Shown here: one piece after another, positions 18,042 through 26,700 of the stretch | Layout: each line of letters begins with the position of its first letter | How positions within the stretch are numbered: the first letter of the stretch is position 1 | Translations under genes and position numbers: made by a program | NCBI GenBank assembly: GCA_040752815.1 | Contig: JBFMGC010000025.1 | Span: 1 to 42,973 of the forward strand | DNA: 42,973 nt | Direction of reading: 5' to 3' | Source of the DNA: Candidatus Zixiibacteriota bacterium | GTDB taxonomy: Bacteria > Zixibacteria > MSB-5A5 > GN15 > FEB-12 | Notes under the pieces: model-generated | What the model saw: only the letters and a program-made list of their open reading frames with translations | Told to the model about the DNA's origin: nothing | Database searches by the model: none

Positions 18042-19682
18042 ATGCTCAGGAATATGCTATCACAGGAACGCGGTGTGGCGGCGTTGCTGGCTTTGCTGAT
18101 GATCGGGATGCTCTTGCTGATCGGTCTGGCGGCGCTGTCCACGAGCGATGATGAAGTCCAGATAGCCGGCAACGAGTGGCACGAAACCAAGGCGTTTTAC
18201 GCAGCCGAGGCCGGCCTGCAGGTGGCCATGTCGGCGCTTCAGACCGAATACGACAGCACCGGTGTGCCGCCGCTCGTGCTGCCGTCGGGTCAGGTCACGC
18301 TCAACGGCTGCGTGACAAACTATGGCTCAAGCGACAATGGCCCGGCGGTGATGCGGCCGCTCTCGAGCGGAAGCCTGGCCGGATTGCATGCGCTGGTCAA
18401 GTCATTCAGTGTCGATGCCAGCGCGGTAAGCCAGGCGGACAACTCCCGCGTGGACCTGGCGGAATCTTTCGAAGTGGCGCTCGTGCCAATCTTCCAGTTC
18501 GCCGTCTTTTATGATAATGATCTCGAAATCGCCCCGGGGCCGATGATGACGCTGACCGGGCGCGTTCACACCAACAGCAACCTCTACCTGCAGTCCAACG
18601 TGAATCTGCAGATGGACAGCTACATCTCGGCGGCGGGCGAGATTCATCACGGCCGCAAGGGGCCGGGCGGCGCAGGCGCCGGTGACGTGCAGATCAGGGA
18701 CGCCGCCGGAAATCTCGTTTCGATGCGCATGGGCGGGAACTGGCTCGATGCCGACTACAGCAACTGGTATGATTCCTCGCTCGGCCGCTGGAACGGCCGG
18801 GTCAAGGACCAGGCGCACGGCCAGCAACGATTGAATCTGCCCCTCTCCAATAGCGGCAATCCCCATGCGCTAATCGAACGGGCCGCCGGCAACCCGGATT
18901 CGTACGAGAATAAGGCGACGCTGAAGCTCATCGACGGTGTCGCGTGGCGGAAGATGGAGAACGGCTCGTGGCAGGATGTGACCGGGGCGATGATCGCCGA
19001 CGGCGCGCTGGCGTATCGATCCGACGGGTTCACGGACCAGCGCGAGGGCGCTGCTGTCGATGTCACCGAACTGGATGTTGAGAAGATGTACGCCGGCGGC
19101 TACGCACCGCTGAACGGCGTGGTCTATTTCTCGGACGAGCCGACCTCATCGGCCGATTGGCCTGCCCTGCGGCTGGTTAACGGTGATGTGCTCGACGACG
19201 GCCTGACCGTGGCTTCGGAAAACCCGCTCTACACGCTGGGTGATTTCAATTCGAACAATAAGAAGCCGGCCGCGCTGATGGCTGACGCCATCACGTTTCT
19301 GTCCAACTCCTGGGTCGACAGTCTGAGCAACCGGAACAAAGCGGTGCGCCTGGCCCGCCAGACCACCGTAAACGCCTCGTACCTTACCGGCAACGTGGAA
19401 ACCACCGCCTCGGATTACAACGGCGGATTTGAGAACTTGCCAAGATTTCTTGAAACCTGGACCGGTGTCAATTTCAACTGGAAAGGTTCGGCGGTTAATC
19501 TGTGGAATTCACAACAGGCCGACGGCACCTGGAACGGAACCTATTACAGTCCGCCGAACCGGGTGTGGCAGTATGACACCGACCTCAATGACCCCAACAA
19601 ACTGCCGCCGGAAACGCCCATGATACGGGTCTTCCAGCGCACCGGCTGGACGCAGAGATACGTGGGTTACGCCGGGTCGTAA
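18042..19682 (+). CDS. PilX-like prepilin with long C-terminal domain
   Basis: 546 residues. The N-terminus ERG11-VAALLALLMIGMLLLIGLAAL has prepilin-like cleavage context but lacks Glu at +5, as in PilX proteins, and carries the PilX signature AFYAAEAGLQVA at 51-62. Typical PilX proteins are under 200 residues; here ~450 more residues follow, rich in Gly, Asn and Asp, with GRVHTNSNLYL, NPLYTLGDFNSNN and PAALMADAITFLSNSW. These recur in repetitive, possibly beta-helical C-termini. AGGAG precedes ATG 18042 by 8 nt. No PilY1-like adhesin is in the window, so this domain may serve as the adhesive tip (inference). Confidence 0.82.
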   Translation: MLRNMLSQERGVAALLALLMIGMLLLIGLAALSTSDDEVQIAGNEWHETKAFYAAEAGLQVAMSALQTEYDSTGVPPLVLPSGQVTLNGCVTNYGSSDNGPAVMRPLSSGSLAGLHALVKSFSVDASAVSQADNSRVDLAESFEVALVPIFQFAVFYDNDLEIAPGPMMTLTGRVHTNSNLYLQSNVNLQMDSYISAAGEIHHGRKGPGGAGAGDVQIRDAAGNLVSMRMGGNWLDADYSNWYDSSLGRWNGRVKDQAHGQQRLNLPLSNSGNPHALIERAAGNPDSYENKATLKLIDGVAWRKMENGSWQDVTGAMIADGALAYRSDGFTDQREGAAVDVTELDVEKMYAGGYAPLNGVVYFSDEPTSSADWPALRLVNGDVLDDGLTVASENPLYTLGDFNSNNKKPAALMADAITFLSNSWVDSLSNRNKAVRLARQTTVNASYLTGNVETTASDYNGGFENLPRFLETWTGVNFNWKGSAVNLWNSQQADGTWNGTYYSPPNRVWQYDTDLNDPNKLPPETPMIRVFQRTGWTQRYVGYAGS

Positions 19683-19740: not shown

Positions 19741-22158
19741 CTACTCGATGCTTAGATCAAAGGGCATGCGGGCCAGGATTGCACCTTCGGTGGATACAGG
19801 AAGCAACGGCAGCTCGCCTTCGGGCGAGTTGCCCTTTCCGCTTAGCATCGCCATCACCTGTTTCCAGAGCGAAGCGCCCGGCAGCAGAAACAATGGACGT
19901 TTTTGAGGGTAGATTTCGACTCGGTACCTCTCGAGACCAATCTCGGCGGCGAGATGATCGAGCGCCGGTTTGATGCCGCCGGTCTGGTCGGCGAGACCGC
20001 ACGCCACTGCCTGGCGGCCGGTCCACACACGACCGCGAGCAAGCTGGTCAACCGAGTCCTCGGTGAGTCGCCGACTGGTCGACACCAGCGACACAAAGTG
20101 ATCGTAGAACGCCTGCAGGTGGGACTGATACTTTTCGCGCTCCTCCGGAAGAAACGGACGCATGGTGGAGAGCATACCGGCGTACTGCCCGCGCGTGTAC
20201 AGTTCCTTGCCCAGCTTGATCTTCTCGTACAGTCCGCTCAGATCGAGCTTACCGCCGTAGATACCTATCGAGCCGGTCACGGTTGCCGGGTTTACAAACA
20301 AACGCCGGCTCGGGGTGGCGATATAGTACCCCCCCGACGCGGCCACGTTGGCCATCGACACCATGAGCGGTTTCGTTTCCGCAGCTTTGGCCGCGGCGCG
20401 GTGGATTTCCTCGCCCGCCAGCGCCCAGCCGCCGGGTGAATTTACTCTAAGTACGATTCCGGCCACCTCGGGATTGCGCCAGGCTCTTTCGAAAGCCTGC
20501 GCCATAGGCCTCGGTCTGACGCTTGATGACGGTTCCGGCCAGCCATCATTGCCGCTGTCCTGTGTGATTTCACCGTCGGCCACCACCACGGCGATCACCG
20601 GCGTCGGTTGCCAGGAGTCGTTGACGAGGGTATCGGACTGGTAGCGGCGAAACGAAATCGATGGCAGCCCTGCGAAGTAGTTCCTGGCGACCAGGTCCCG
20701 ATAGCACAAGCCGTCCACCAGGCCGTACCTTAGAGCCTCGTCCGACGTGAACGGGCCGCGATCTATCATGTGGCGCACGGAGTCGGCGGATAGCCCGCGC
20801 CCGTCCGCAATGGCCGCCACGAACTGCTCGAACAGATCGTCGAGCAGCGCGTTGATCTGTTCGCGGTTTTCGTCGCTGGACGACTCCCTCGTATACGCCT
20901 CGGGCGCACTCTTGTACTCACCCACTCGAAGCAGCTCAATCCTGGCCCCGACCTTTTCCAGCGTGCCCGCCCAGAACGTCAGTTCGGCGCGCAAGCCGAC
21001 TAGTTGCAACTGGCTCACTGGAGGGATAAGTATCGAATCGGCGGCACTCGCCACGTAATAGCCGAGATTGTTCGGCGCGCCGAGATGGCAGATGATTCGC
21101 TTGCCGCGCGAGCGAAAGTTCTGAAGTGCGTCGCGCAGTTCCTGGGCCTGCCCCATGCCGAGAGCGAGACGGTCGAGATTGAGTTTCATCGCACCGATTG
21201 AGCGGTCATCAGCCGCACGGTAGATATCCGTAATCAGGGACAGAAACGGCACGGATCGCGGTCCGAAAATCGGCTGCGGCGGATTCTCGGCAACGGTTCC
21301 GCTGATTGTCAGGTCGAGCCGCCGCGGGTTCTCCGGGATCAGCGACGCCTGCCGCATATTCGTGGCGCCGACAAACATTGTCGTACGCCCGTTGTGGCCC
21401 GCTTTGTCGAAGCGGCTGTGCGAACCCACAAAGTACTTGAGCAGGTTCGCCCGGAGACCGATCTGGAAGTTGCCGTCGGAATCCACCCAACTGTTGACAT
21501 ACAGTCCCGGTGTGGGAATTAGCTCGGCATGATAGACGAATTCCGCCTCGCTCAGGTTCTGTCGCGACGAGAGAAACACATCGGCAGCGACCGTCAGAAC
21601 CTGGCCCAGCGGCCGGTAGCCCAGTGAGTAGCGCTGTTCGGTAGCGGTTCTCTCGCCGTCTACCCGGCCCCGGTTCAGGTTGGAAAAAACTGCCCCGACT
21701 GCGAATGAGCCCATTCCTTGCGTGGCGAAACCCAGATTCCACAGATGACGGTTGTTATAGATACCGGGGCCTTTGCGAAAATACCGATACGAGGTGCCGA
21801 CATTGAGAGTCTGCCCCAGTTTCAAACCCAATGATGCTAGCCATTCATCGTAATCTTCACCGGCGGGATTGTCGACATGCCGCACGGCTGTCGCGGCGCC
21901 GTCGCGATAGAACACCGTCCCCCAACTCTTGAAGTAATCACCCGCGTAATAGTCGGCCATGATCTCGAAGCCGGTCATGCCGGTACGCCCCAGGCCGGCC
22001 GGGTTATTCCAAGCCGATTCGAGCCCATAAGTGGTAGCGGCAGGACGGTAATAGAACACACCCTCAGGCAGGGGGATCCGCCGGCTATCATCGGAGCCGT
22101 ATGCGGACGTAATGAGAAGGAATGAAAGAACCGGTCGACACCAGCGCCACGGATTCAT
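19741..22158 (-). CDS. SppA-family signal peptide peptidase with barrel-like N-terminal domain
   Basis: 805 residues, S49 serine protease. Residues 1-20 are a signal peptide. Residues ~40-275 alternate hydrophobic and polar beta strands and start with ATTYGLESAWNNPAGLG, the NPAGL hallmark of outer-membrane barrel proteins of the PorV/TodX/FadL style. The SppA part begins near 280 (RRLDLTISGTVAENPP). The catalytic dyad is K416 (GEYKSAPEAYTR) and S608 (VAASGGYYIATP), spaced as in E. coli SppA (K209/S409), so it looks active. SppA normally clears cleaved signal peptides at the inner membrane; this fusion suggests an outer-membrane or periplasmic protease (inference). The ATG is 1 bp after the stop of the DUF4097 gene. 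Last gene of a three-gene operon. Confidence 0.9.
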   Translation of the reverse strand: MNPWRWCRPVLSFLLITSAYGSDDSRRIPLPEGVFYYRPAATTYGLESAWNNPAGLGRTGMTGFEIMADYYAGDYFKSWGTVFYRDGAATAVRHVDNPAGEDYDEWLASLGLKLGQTLNVGTSYRYFRKGPGIYNNRHLWNLGFATQGMGSFAVGAVFSNLNRGRVDGERTATEQRYSLGYRPLGQVLTVAADVFLSSRQNLSEAEFVYHAELIPTPGLYVNSWVDSDGNFQIGLRANLLKYFVGSHSRFDKAGHNGRTTMFVGATNMRQASLIPENPRRLDLTISGTVAENPPQPIFGPRSVPFLSLITDIYRAADDRSIGAMKLNLDRLALGMGQAQELRDALQNFRSRGKRIICHLGAPNNLGYYVASAADSILIPPVSQLQLVGLRAELTFWAGTLEKVGARIELLRVGEYKSAPEAYTRESSSDENREQINALLDDLFEQFVAAIADGRGLSADSVRHMIDRGPFTSDEALRYGLVDGLCYRDLVARNYFAGLPSISFRRYQSDTLVNDSWQPTPVIAVVVADGEITQDSGNDGWPEPSSSVRPRPMAQAFERAWRNPEVAGIVLRVNSPGGWALAGEEIHRAAAKAAETKPLMVSMANVAASGGYYIATPSRRLFVNPATVTGSIGIYGGKLDLSGLYEKIKLGKELYTRGQYAGMLSTMRPFLPEEREKYQSHLQAFYDHFVSLVSTSRRLTEDSVDQLARGRVWTGRQAVACGLADQTGGIKPALDHLAAEIGLERYRVEIYPQKRPLFLLPGASLWKQVMAMLSGKGNSPEGELPLLPVSTEGAILARMPFDLSIE

Positions 22159-22159
22159 G

Positions 22160-23218
22160 TTACTCTCCCGCCTTTCCGCGTATGAAGATGTTCCCTTTGC
22201 CTTTCACCGAGCCGCGGATATCCACTCGTCCGTCTCCAGCTACGAGGTTCAGCCGGTTGTGCTCTACCAGATCGGGGGTGAAGGAAAAGTTGGAAGCCTC
22301 GATGATCCCGTCGTCATCGACCGACAAAGTGTAAAACGCGGAGAGCGTGTCGGGCACCGAGATTTCGATATCCTCCTGACGATTGCTGATGACCAGTTGG
22401 CCCTCGTCCATCGAAGTGATCTCAACCGCCACCGGCCCCGACGTCCCCCGGATATAGCTGCTGGAGCCTTTGGCCGTCCACTTCTCGATACTGATCCGGC
22501 CGTAGCTGTTCCTCACGTTTAGCGTGCCCACCACACCGACAATGTCGATATCGCCGCCGTCATTACGAAAGCGTGCCTGCTCATCCGGGCACGATAGATT
22601 TTCAACGAGGAGTGACGAATTGGAAGTCACGGCGGAGACCTGTCCCTTGATATCGGACAGGGTGACGCGCCGATTGGCTGTGCTCACGTTGAGCCGTTCG
22701 GTAATCCCGGAAATCTCCATCTTTCCCAGAGACTCGGGGATATCGAGCGCCCGCAGCGGACCACGCGCGGTTAGGTCGTAAATCGGCGCCTCGATCTCCA
22801 ATTCCGCGCCGCTCGGTACGATTAACTCCAATTCTACCATGCCGGCGTAGTCGGTGCCGCTCCACGGCGCTGGGTTGGGCGCGCGCATTTTCACTACCGG
22901 GGTCTCGGCACGCCCCTCTGAAACGACCGAGATCAGATCGATGAAGTCAATTGCCTCCGACCGGCTGGACGCTTTGGCCACCTTGCGATACTCCACCACC
23001 AGGCTATCTGCGGTGTGCGTAACGATTTTGATGCTGCCGGAAAGGTGAACCGCCGACGCGACCTCAATCTTCGCCTTCGGCGCAACCGGCCGGGCGATAC
23101 GGATCGTCTCGGTGGCATAGGTGCCGGACTCGCGCTCGATTACTTCCTGGCCGAGCAAGGGTGAAGCCACCACGGCCAGGTAGAGAACCATCAGCAAAGA
23201 GTACCTCGTCATCTTCAT
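22160..23218 (-). CDS. DUF4097-type secreted beta-strand repeat protein
   Basis: 352 residues. Residues 1-23 form a signal peptide (LLMVLYLAVVASPLLG). The rest resembles DUF4097 (putative adhesin) beta-strand repeats: recurrent short units such as VHLSGSIKIVTHTADSLVVEY, GDIDIVGVVGTLNVRNSYGRISIEK and GDGRVDIRGSVKGKGNIFIRG, predicted to fold as a right-handed beta helix. The function of these proteins is unknown; some are linked to envelope stress. Its ATG overlaps the stop of the SpoU gene by 4 bp (positions 23215-23218) and its stop is 1 bp from the SppA start, so all three genes are coupled. Confidence 0.85.
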   Translation of the reverse strand: MKMTRYSLLMVLYLAVVASPLLGQEVIERESGTYATETIRIARPVAPKAKIEVASAVHLSGSIKIVTHTADSLVVEYRKVAKASSRSEAIDFIDLISVVSEGRAETPVVKMRAPNPAPWSGTDYAGMVELELIVPSGAELEIEAPIYDLTARGPLRALDIPESLGKMEISGITERLNVSTANRRVTLSDIKGQVSAVTSNSSLLVENLSCPDEQARFRNDGGDIDIVGVVGTLNVRNSYGRISIEKWTAKGSSSYIRGTSGPVAVEITSMDEGQLVISNRQEDIEISVPDTLSAFYTLSVDDDGIIEASNFSFTPDLVEHNRLNLVAGDGRVDIRGSVKGKGNIFIRGKAGE

Positions 23219-24012
23219 TTCCTCCGCGACCGGATGTCATAACATTCCTTCATGAGAATCGCTCCGGCTATGGCGGAATTGAGCGATTCGACCTGAGCGC
23301 TGTGCTCGATCCGTACCAATCTGTCAGCAGCCTGGATCATCTCAGGCGAGAGGCCGTCCGCCTCCGAACCTATCGCGAGCATAATGCGGTTATTCTTCAT
23401 GGAGGCCAGAACTGCATCCATTTTGTCCGATCCCTGCAGGGCGGCAGCGATGATGTGAAAGCGCTCTCGTCCTGCGGCGGCCAGTGTCTCCGCCATATCG
23501 GCCGACGCCACCGGCATGCCGAAAACCGCCCCAACCGACGCGCGCACCACCTTCGGCGAAAACGCTTCCGCGCACCTTCCGACCAGCACCACCAGATCGA
23601 AATCGAACGCCAGCGCCGTCCGGATCAGCGTGCCGACATTGCCGGGATCGGAGATGTTCTCGCACAGTAGTACATTACGCATAGTCGGGAGGATAAGTTC
23701 GCCCAGCCGCTGATTTGGAAGCTCGAAAACGGCCAGGATTCCCTGGGATGTTTCGGTGTCGGCGATCCGGGTCAGCTCGCCGGCGCTCACCTGTTGAGTG
23801 GCCACACCCGCCTTGCGAAAACGCTCCACCACCTGTCCGCCTCGGGAGGAGAGTACCGACGGCGCAAAATACAGCCGCGCAGGATATCGTTTGAAGCGGA
23901 GTGTTTCCTCCATCAGGCGAACGCCCTCAGCCAGAAATCGGCGCGACGTGCGTCGACCCTTCCTGGTCTGCAGCGCGCGGAGATTTTTTGTTTCCGATCG
24001 GCTAAGGGGCAA
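23215..24012 (-). CDS. TrmH/SpoU family RNA 2'-O-methyltransferase
   Basis: 265 residues. The N-terminal substrate-binding domain (TRKGRRTSRRFLAEGVRLMEETL) precedes the SPOUT knot with all three motifs: NISDPGNVGTLIRTA (motif 1), LAIGSEADGLS (motif 2) and VESLNSAIAGAILM (motif 3). It methylates ribose in rRNA or tRNA using S-adenosylmethionine; the exact site cannot be assigned. The start is TTG at 24012, with GAGG 9 nt upstream; no better start was seen. It heads the operon with DUF4097 and SppA and diverges from the patatin gene with only 21 bp between starts, so promoters must overlap coding sequence. Confidence 0.92.
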   Translation of the reverse strand: MPLSRSETKNLRALQTRKGRRTSRRFLAEGVRLMEETLRFKRYPARLYFAPSVLSSRGGQVVERFRKAGVATQQVSAGELTRIADTETSQGILAVFELPNQRLGELILPTMRNVLLCENISDPGNVGTLIRTALAFDFDLVVLVGRCAEAFSPKVVRASVGAVFGMPVASADMAETLAAAGRERFHIIAAALQGSDKMDAVLASMKNNRIMLAIGSEADGLSPEMIQAADRLVRIEHSAQVESLNSAIAGAILMKECYDIRSRRK

Positions 24013-24033: not shown

Positions 24034-26700
24034 ATGACTGAGAGAATGAACCAGTTAGCTCCTCATTGGCAAGTGAAAACTCTGGCGGCGGTGTTTGCGG
24101 CGGTCGGTCTGCTGTTCTACGGTGCCACCGCGGGAGAATTAGGCATCCAAGTCGGCGGCCTGGACGGGATCGATCCATGGCAGCCCACGCCGAAAGCACA
24201 AATCGGCCTCGCGCTTTCCGGAGGCGGAGCGCGTGGGCTGAGCGCGGTGGGCGTGCTCCAGGCGTTCGAAGAAAAAGGGATCGAGCCAATCGCGATTACC
24301 GGCACGTCGATAGGCGGAGTGATCGGCGGTTTGTATGCGTGCGGATATACGGTTGATGAACTGCGCGAGATCGTGAAAGACCTCGACATCAACACGCTCA
24401 TCGCCACGCGACCGGCGCGGACATCGATGTTTCTAACGCGTCGTCAGGAACGAGAGAAGTATTTATTTTCGGTGCGGTTCAACGGCTGGCGGCCTGAGAT
24501 TCCGCGCGCCTTTACCGGCGGCCAGGAAATCACTTCGCTGCTCACCCGGCTCACGCTCAAGGCCAATTATCTCGCCGACCGCGAGTTCACCAGGTTCCCG
24601 ATCCCGTTCAAGACGGTCGGCACTGATATCGTGACCGGACAGCTTGTCGTACTTGAGCAGGGTTCGCTGGCCGATGCCATGCGGGCCACTATGGCGTTTC
24701 CGCTCGCGTTTACCGGTGTCGAGAAAGGCAATGGCCTTCTGATGGACGGCGGCATGTTGATGCCGGTGCCGGTCGAAGTGCTCCGCCCGATGGTTGATTC
24801 GGGCACCACCATTGTCGCCGTAAATACCGCAAGCCCGCTGCTGGACTTGGACGACCTAAACACACCCGTAGATATTGCCAACCAGGTTACGAGTATAATG
24901 ACCGCGGACAAGCTGCGCTACCAGCTAAGCCTGGCCGACGTTGTGCTGACACCGGTGGGGGAACAGCTCTCGTCGACTGATTTCGAGGACGCCGATAGCC
25001 TGATCGCGCTTGGTTATCGGGCGGCGCTTATGGCAGCCGACACCATACTGGCGCTACAGGCGTCGCGGTCGGCGTTGACTGTCTACGATGTGTGTGACCT
25101 GCAAGTCGTTTGCAGCGATTCGTCGCTCGCCAATAGGTTCCGGGAGTCGAGATTGGACCGTCCGTTCACTCTGCCTCAACTGATCGAAGATCTGAAAACT
25201 CTTGCCCGAACCGAGCCGGTGTTCAGTATCAAAGCCGAGCTTTTCGCCGAATGTGTGGTGCCTGATCAATCATCAGGGGCGCCGGAAAACACTGTAATCC
25301 TGCGTCTTTATCTTCAGCCGCAACCCCGCATGGTGGATATCACGTTGCGCTTCGAAGGGGACATCCTTAACGACGATCTCTCGCTCGCGCGCCTGTGTGA
25401 CTTTTCCGACAGCCTGCTCTCGCCAACCGCGCTTCGCCGCGCTGCCGACCGAATTGTCGAGCGGTACCACGACGACGGCTACGACATGGCCGAGGTGCGG
25501 GATATCGCGGTTGATTTTGACAGAATGTTGGTGACGTTTACAATCGACGAGGCGCGGGTGGGCAGAATCAACGTGGCCGAGAACAAGCGTACTCGCGACT
25601 GGCTGGTGCGATCGTACCTGCCCGTAGCCAGGGGAGGGGCGTTTTCATCCGATAAGGCGGCGCGTGGCCTTTCGGCCCTTTACGGCACCGAACTGTTTGA
25701 GCGGGTGATGCTTGATCTTGAGCCGGGCGACAGCCTGGCAACCATGACCATCCGGGTCAAGGAACGCAAATACTCGCAGGTAAGATTGGGCTGGCACTGG
25801 CATGATGAGTACCAGTCCGAGCAGTTTATCGAGCTGGTCGATGACAACGTCAACGGGGTGGGTCTCGAGTTCCTGACTCACCTGCAGTACGGGCCCGACC
25901 GCCAGGATTATCACACCGGCCTTCGCCTCGACCGGATTTTCTTCACGTATTTGACGGCGCGCCTTGGGTTCTTCTACAATCTGCTCGATCGGGATCTTTT
26001 CGACAGTCAGGGTGATGTCAACGGCTATCGCGACGAGGACCGTTGGGGCGGCGCGTTTTATCTGGGGCAGCAGATCGCCCGTCTGGGCCAGGTGCAGGCT
26101 GGTTTGCGGGTAGAGGAGATCAAGACCGCCGATCACCGCTTCAACACCGTCGGACAGCTGAGCCTTCGCACTCTGCACTTTGAGTCCGAGGTGGAATCGT
26201 TTGACCGTTATCCATTTCCGAATTCCGGAAGCAAACATCGGTTCGATCTCCGGTTTGCCGGCAAACTCCTCGGTGGCGACGTGGAGTTTACGCGATTCAA
26301 TACCTCGCTCGAAGCGTACTACACACTGACTTCATGGCTCAATTACCATCCAAAAATCTCGATGGGCTTGTCGAGGCGAGGCCTGCCGCCGTCGGAGAAA
26401 TTCTACCTCGGCGGGCTTGGTTCGTTTTCGGGATATCGGGTGAACGAACTCTCGGGCGAGAAGATGTTCTTGCTCAATCAGGAGCTGCGGTTCAAGCTGC
26501 CGTTTCGATTCTACCTGACCGGGCGGTTTGACTTTGGCGACATACAGGCCGGCGCCGAGGATATCAAGCCGGAGGAGTTTCGTCAGGGGTTTGGGGTGTC
26601 TCTATCGTTTGACTCGCCTATCGGCCCGTTCGAGTTCGGCTTCGGCGGTGGCGATTCGCCCAAGGATCAATACTACTTTTCCGCGGGGTTCAGGTTCTAG
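24034..26700 (+). CDS. Patatin-like phospholipase with Omp85-type barrel (type Vd autotransporter, PlpD-like)
   Basis: 888 residues, surface-exposed or secreted lipase. Residues ~15-35 are a signal peptide. The patatin domain (about 55-320) has the oxyanion loop GGGARG (63-68), nucleophile S92 in GTSIG and catalytic D238 in MDGGM, so the dyad is complete. POTRA-like repeats follow (about 370-600). A C-terminal beta barrel has the Omp85 motif FYLGGLGSFSGYRVN and a terminal FSAGFRF beta-signal ending in Phe. This order is that of type Vd autotransporters. The ATG at 24034 was chosen by the signal peptide; an upstream extension to 23794 would overlap the divergent methyltransferase gene antisense. 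ATG 24046 is possible. Confidence 0.93.
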   Translation: MTERMNQLAPHWQVKTLAAVFAAVGLLFYGATAGELGIQVGGLDGIDPWQPTPKAQIGLALSGGGARGLSAVGVLQAFEEKGIEPIAITGTSIGGVIGGLYACGYTVDELREIVKDLDINTLIATRPARTSMFLTRRQEREKYLFSVRFNGWRPEIPRAFTGGQEITSLLTRLTLKANYLADREFTRFPIPFKTVGTDIVTGQLVVLEQGSLADAMRATMAFPLAFTGVEKGNGLLMDGGMLMPVPVEVLRPMVDSGTTIVAVNTASPLLDLDDLNTPVDIANQVTSIMTADKLRYQLSLADVVLTPVGEQLSSTDFEDADSLIALGYRAALMAADTILALQASRSALTVYDVCDLQVVCSDSSLANRFRESRLDRPFTLPQLIEDLKTLARTEPVFSIKAELFAECVVPDQSSGAPENTVILRLYLQPQPRMVDITLRFEGDILNDDLSLARLCDFSDSLLSPTALRRAADRIVERYHDDGYDMAEVRDIAVDFDRMLVTFTIDEARVGRINVAENKRTRDWLVRSYLPVARGGAFSSDKAARGLSALYGTELFERVMLDLEPGDSLATMTIRVKERKYSQVRLGWHWHDEYQSEQFIELVDDNVNGVGLEFLTHLQYGPDRQDYHTGLRLDRIFFTYLTARLGFFYNLLDRDLFDSQGDVNGYRDEDRWGGAFYLGQQIARLGQVQAGLRVEEIKTADHRFNTVGQLSLRTLHFESEVESFDRYPFPNSGSKHRFDLRFAGKLLGGDVEFTRFNTSLEAYYTLTSWLNYHPKISMGLSRRGLPPSEKFYLGGLGSFSGYRVNELSGEKMFLLNQELRFKLPFRFYLTGRFDFGDIQAGAEDIKPEEFRQGFGVSLSFDSPIGPFEFGFGGGDSPKDQYYFSAGFRF

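Follow-up and report, generated by a model that had tools for sequence, protein, structure and literature searches.

The window, a stretch of 42,973 nucleotides from a Candidatus Zixiibacteriota genome, carries on its reverse strand a three-gene cluster that starts with a SpoU-family methyltransferase gene and ends with a gene encoding an SppA-type peptidase fused to an N-terminal barrel-like domain (Table 1). The tight spacing described in the initial annotation is present in the sequence: the SpoU and DUF4097-like genes overlap by four bases (ATGA), and a single base separates the DUF4097-like gene from the SppA gene (TAA-C-ATG). The methyltransferase matches Pfam SpoU_methylase (E 5.2e-31) and is MRM3-like (E 1.4e-14). 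The divergent neighbour matches Pfam Patatin (E 7.8e-28) and Omp85 (E 6.7e-24), and we take its product to be a type Vd-like patatin-POTRA-Omp85 protein (PlpD type). Convergent to the SppA operon lies a pilus-type cluster with PilX-like minor pilins (18042-19682, forward strand), which is kept in family f1 (L037, L040) and partly duplicated in some genomes.

The name given to the middle gene stands as a remote assignment. A Pfam search with its product returned nothing at E<=0.1, and the NCBIfam LiaG model was matched with E 3e-4, under that model's cut-off; 4 of 18 homologues match PF13349 (DUF4097), with a best E of 2e-7.

Table 1. Genes, domains and sites of the cluster, with related sites at other loci
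Feature	Position	Strand	Basis or remark
Barrel-SppA fusion gene	19741-22158	-	ORF, 805 aa; two Peptidase_S49 stretches
DUF4097-like (toastrack) secreted protein	22160-23218	-	ORF, 352 aa; upstream neighbour, order kept
SpoU-family RNA 2'-O-methyltransferase (MRM3-like / RlmB-like)	23215-24012	-	265 aa; first gene of the cluster
Patatin-POTRA-Omp85 protein	24034-26700	+	Divergent neighbour; Pfam and synteny
Predicted signal peptide, residues ~1-22, MNPWRWCRPVLSFLLITSAYG	22093-22158	-	By eye from sequence; N-terminal hydrophobicity in most relatives
N-terminal barrel-like domain, residues ~28-276	21331-22077	-	Family alignments; predicted strands; PorV profile match; border of standalone homologues
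NPAGL motif, residues 52-56	21991-22005	-	NP conserved without exception in fusions of the class
S49 N-terminal lobe, residues ~279-510	20629-21324	-	First strand equivalent to E. coli LLLDISG
Putative catalytic Lys416 codon	20911-20913	-	Aligned to the E. coli SppA lysine
S49 C-terminal lobe, residues ~517-760	19879-20610	-	Alignment and Pfam
Putative catalytic Ser608 codon, within AASGGYY	20335-20337	-	S in all relatives compared
f3/f4 loci with HxxEH-less M16	L051, L054, L060, L062, L063, L065, L068, L070, L075
f18 frame-break sites	L119:5405-5588; L120:5395-5503		T9 run, same place in both

The S49 tandem and the transmembrane anchor

Pfam detects S49 in two stretches of the fusion protein (E 7.6e-70, 234 bits). 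The NCBIfam model TIGR00706 (SppA_dom) is matched at 227 bits, above its cut-off of 155, and the 67K equivalog TIGR00705 at 287.5 bits, below its cut-off of 311.45. The closest solved structure is that of E. coli SppA (3bez, E 3e-49), with an alignment that begins only at residue 307. A broader alignment puts the start of the S49 module at about residue 279, where RLDLTISG lies opposite LLLDISG of E. coli (LLLDISGVIV), leaving an extra N-terminal portion of about 278 residues with the signal peptide counted in. The N-terminal addition noted previously is real, but it is longer than the ~235 residues first given.

E. coli SppA (protease IV, 67K type; 3bez/3bf0; TIGR00705) shares with the fusion the tandem S49 arrangement, with the lysine in the first lobe and the serine in the second, and the two proteins are collinear over fusion residues 307-757. 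Unlike the fusion, it has a short N-terminus with a transmembrane helix at residues ~18-49 and no barrel-like domain. The short SppA proteins (36K type, e.g. B. subtilis) share the S49 catalytic lobe, but they have a single S49 domain, preceded by an N-terminal transmembrane helix (PMC7568657), and no barrel. Lys416 and Ser608 had been picked out correctly as the dyad and are kept in every fusion checked, their equivalents being K and S in 36/36 relatives and in all 43 members of a larger set with E. coli SppA among them. From this conservation we infer that the fusion protein is an active SppA-type Lys/Ser peptidase.

What the fusion protein lacks is the usual membrane anchor. Its highest 19-residue hydropathy window is at most 1.17, and no window exceeds 1.6, compared with 2.53 for E. 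coli SppA and 3.19 for a barrel-less relative by the same measure. The N-terminus is of the cleavable type and is followed by the barrel-like domain; the signal-peptide segment of this particular protein is short and weakly hydrophobic (19-residue mean 0.53), and N-terminal hydrophobic segments are present in most relatives. The host genome yields three S49 matches, of which two are the halves of the fusion gene and the third is a 304-aa short SppA (L001) with a clear transmembrane helix (mean hydropathy 2.78). These comparisons support the replacement of the transmembrane anchor of ordinary SppA by a signal peptide and a barrel-like domain. By sequence, the fusion protein is a member of the S49/SppA family, yet one without the transmembrane anchor and with a TIGR00705 score under the cut-off.

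The N-terminal domain

The domain that occupies the place of the anchor comprises about 250 residues, is all-beta by prediction and is of the NPAGL type. The motif, initially placed near residue 53, was found with its start at residue 52, and its NP is invariant across 25 fusions. No Pfam or NCBIfam family matched the domain over its cut-off, and profile searches of the PDB found no relative. When the domain was aligned by hhalign with PorV-family proteins of the same genomes, a match was obtained over the first ~125 residues (E 7e-6, probability 84%); those PorV-family proteins in turn match the solved PorV structure 6h3i (E 1.1e-23). Among Pfam families, Porin_4 gave the best match (E 5.4e-4, in 6 of 45 members of the domain family), together with weak TraF_2 matches, and one of 32 members matched NF033709 (PorV_fam) with E 0.01, under the cut-off. 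The beta-amphipathic ratio of the domain is at the PorV level (1.37), as opposed to 0.69 for the S49 part; on its own this measure is not discriminating, because the soluble DUF4097-like protein scores high too.

PorV/PorQ (NF033709; PorV 6h3i) and the FadL/TraF_2-type NPA barrels resemble the domain in their order of signal peptide, NPA(G)L helix and beta strands, but the PorV-family proteins are mostly separate proteins of ~330 aa, and the domain forms another, smaller family. PorV-family barrels are strongly expanded in G000 and its relatives, with 7-19 matches per genome, some of them within proteins of 600-950 aa, and in G000:C15 two such barrels stand in tandem in one 687-aa frame.

AlphaFold models were built from an alignment of three sequences only (those of the window, L004 and L005). 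With this input the full-length fusion reached a pLDDT of 36.6, and the domain alone was modelled as an NPAGL helix followed by ~11 strands, with a pLDDT of 49.1 and a pTM of 0.50. Foldseek neighbours of this low-confidence domain model are nearly all transmembrane barrels (E>0.04), none of the matches reaching E 0.001. Standalone homologues of the domain stop at the same border as the domain does in the fusions. Motif, PorV profile match and Foldseek neighbours support the proposal that the domain is an outer-membrane barrel, and with it an outer-membrane location, but neither is proven; for the closed barrel the models do not suffice, because they are of low confidence and derive from three sequences.

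Spread, gene order and natural splits

Relatives of the locus are Candidatus Zixiibacteriota MAGs, and among 60 of them the members of families f1, f2 and f3 generally have the complete fusion. A profile of the domain finds it in 121/132 genomes of this phylum, candidate Zixibacteria, in most cases within SppA ORFs of ~800-950 aa, while a broader profile finds it in 124/132 of them and in 30 of the 109 genomes sampled outside the phylum. Fourteen of the outside loci were examined in full: 13 hold complete barrel-SppA fusions and one a barrel alone. By profile search the two genomes of family f7 (93-99% complete) are without the domain, which is a genuine absence. When an outside-phylum fusion (L132) was compared with plasmids by tblastn, 1,621 records matched, none of them over 80% query coverage; among the matches listed, alignments start at residues 276-324 and correspond to the S49 part without the domain. 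The arrangement is far beyond chance because it is conserved across the phylum, and on the strength of the 121/132 phylum and 30/109 outside genomes we reject both a quirk of one lineage and two genes joined in error by gene calling. These surveys support a fusion that is real, ancient and widespread, occurring phylum-wide and in unrelated lineages, whose N-terminal domain varies more than its S49 part. In the literature searched, which covered few subscription journals, no earlier description of the fusion was found. The gene is interrupted in some assemblies: in G032 an A9 homopolymer in the S49 part breaks it (L072:6456-6560), and in G028 a run of N cuts it (L066:6400-6515 and L067), with the C-terminal part elsewhere on the contig, probably through misassembly.

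The S49-part tree sets the window's type (type I) apart with support of 100/99 and joins a second type (type II) with three outside-phylum fusions in one branch (100/100). Type II occurs in f4, f11, f15, f17 and in G002/G007 of f1, and its N-terminal domain is homologous to that of type I (hhalign E 1.8e-15). The two SppA proteins without a barrel branch within the fused ones, where the deep nodes are weakly supported.

Sufficient flanking sequence was available for 48 type I loci; SpoU and DUF4097 genes both lie immediately upstream in 42 of them, one only in five, and neither in one. The patatin-POTRA-Omp85 gene is usually divergent from SpoU and kept by the operon in most families; at type II loci the SpoU, DUF4097 and patatin-POTRA-Omp85 neighbours are absent. 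The conservation check that had been proposed thus returned a phylum-wide fusion and, for type I, a strongly kept DUF4097 neighbour and gene order. Because neighbour and order are so strongly conserved, a functional link between the DUF4097-like protein and barrel-SppA is likely. At loci of f2-f6, f9, f10, f13 and f16 the next genes downstream encode M16 peptidases, usually two; in the window's family f1 the pair is not adjacent, and M16 pairs are found on other contigs. The first M16 gene keeps its HxxEH in f2 and the wider class. All seven f4 loci, which have no S49 part either, and both f3 loci carry beside the barrel an M16 gene that has lost this zinc motif.

Two natural splits of the fusion were found. 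In f4 and in G002/G007 the domain is a standalone protein of ~290 aa at the same locus, directly after SpoU-DUF4097, and a type II fusion is present elsewhere in the genome. Separate, unlinked barrel and SppA genes, which the initial annotation had named as evidence against its proposal, are therefore seen in these genomes, but the other SppA there has its own divergent barrel-like domain, which rules out an unlinked ordinary SppA in f4. In both genomes of f18 (G123 and G124, of two genera) the linker of the fusion contains a T9 run at which the frame shifts by -1, splitting the gene. Because the downstream SppA frame lacks a signal peptide or transmembrane helix of its own, its export would depend on frameshifting or slippage, except if a base is missing from both assemblies. 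The T9 run is a possible site of programmed frameshifting or transcriptional slippage, from which both barrel alone and barrel-SppA would arise; the alternative is an error common to the two assemblies.

A possible peptidase at the outer membrane

The reading we prefer, with somewhat more confidence than doubt, is that of an active SppA-type peptidase anchored in the outer membrane by a barrel and cutting peptides there. The inner-membrane anchor of SppA would have been exchanged for a signal peptide and a ~12-strand NPAGL (PorV/FadL-like) beta-barrel. The protein would be exported by Sec and its barrel then inserted into the outer membrane. Both termini of the barrel would face the periplasm, where the S49 tandem would hang, and the most likely arrangement is an SppA tethered to the outer membrane on its periplasmic side, with the short SppA of the same genome working alongside it from the inner membrane. 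The E. coli enzyme is a tetramer, and the S49 tandem may assemble similarly, as an oligomer with enclosed active sites. SppA proteases are oligomers anchored in a membrane, in which subunits or lobes share the active sites; that of B. subtilis is an octamer (PMC7568657). With the barrel in place of the anchor, the chamber of such an oligomer would come to lie on the periplasmic side of the outer membrane. Its likely substrates at the outer membrane would be peptides or unfolded stretches of protein, such as remnants of lipoproteins or outer-membrane proteins, or arriving peptides. M16 peptidases degrade short peptides, and for this reason the operon may be a peptide-clearance system at the outer membrane, in which, in many families, the two co-encoded M16 enzymes would complete degradation. 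The secreted DUF4097-like protein would be a conserved partner and might conceivably, as first suggested, act as a substrate or regulator. The outer-membrane proteolysis proposed at the outset is consistent with the fusion, the dyad, the loss of the transmembrane helix and the barrel-like domain, though the barrel fold itself is unproven.

Considering that the domain model is of low confidence, that no barrel family is matched over its cut-off and that soluble beta proteins also have amphipathic strands, the domain could instead be a soluble periplasmic beta-rich unit, for substrate binding or oligomerisation, which would make the fusion a soluble periplasmic SppA. We regard this as unlikely in view of the NPAGL motif with its collinear N-terminal match to PorV-family barrels, the porin type of the weak matches and the barrels that dominate among the Foldseek neighbours; moreover, in a family of membrane proteases the sole alternative anchor is gone. 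The weight could also lie on the barrel, for instance as a channel for small molecules or lipids or as a partner in secretion, with the S49 part an accessory that can be lost, as the barrel standing alone behind SpoU-DUF4097 in f4 and G002/G007 might suggest. Those genomes, however, encode another, divergent barrel-SppA at a different site, every fusion keeps the dyad and the partners in other families are peptidases, all of which makes a barrel-centred function improbable. An ordinary SppA whose N-terminal extension has no consequence, or two genes joined by misannotation, would fit the ordinary S49 E-values and the lower conservation of the N-terminal domain, but is hardly credible given that the same one-frame architecture recurs in almost all genomes of the phylum as well as in distant ones, and that the transmembrane anchor is lost.

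The type Vd-like proteins, whose enzyme is a phospholipase and whose barrel is a C-terminal Omp85 domain, likewise combine an enzyme and an outer-membrane barrel in one protein; in barrel-SppA, by contrast, the barrel-like domain is N-terminal and the enzyme is an S49 peptidase. Beyond the anchored peptidase, we put forward a more tentative proposal, which may well prove wrong: barrel-SppA could be an undescribed outer-membrane-tethered SppA of many lineages and two ancient clades that, with the DUF4097-like protein and the M16 pair, forms a dedicated peptide-clearance machine distinct from inner-membrane SppA, and in f18 frameshifting or transcriptional slippage at the T9 run may govern how much free barrel is made relative to barrel-protease.

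SppA is viewed as an inner-membrane enzyme that clears spent signal peptides. If the outer-membrane reading is true, part of the SppA family would have a different job, at the outer membrane. The operon offers testable partners in the DUF4097-like protein and the M16 peptidases, and the split forms in f4 and f18 are ready-made experiments on the role of each half.
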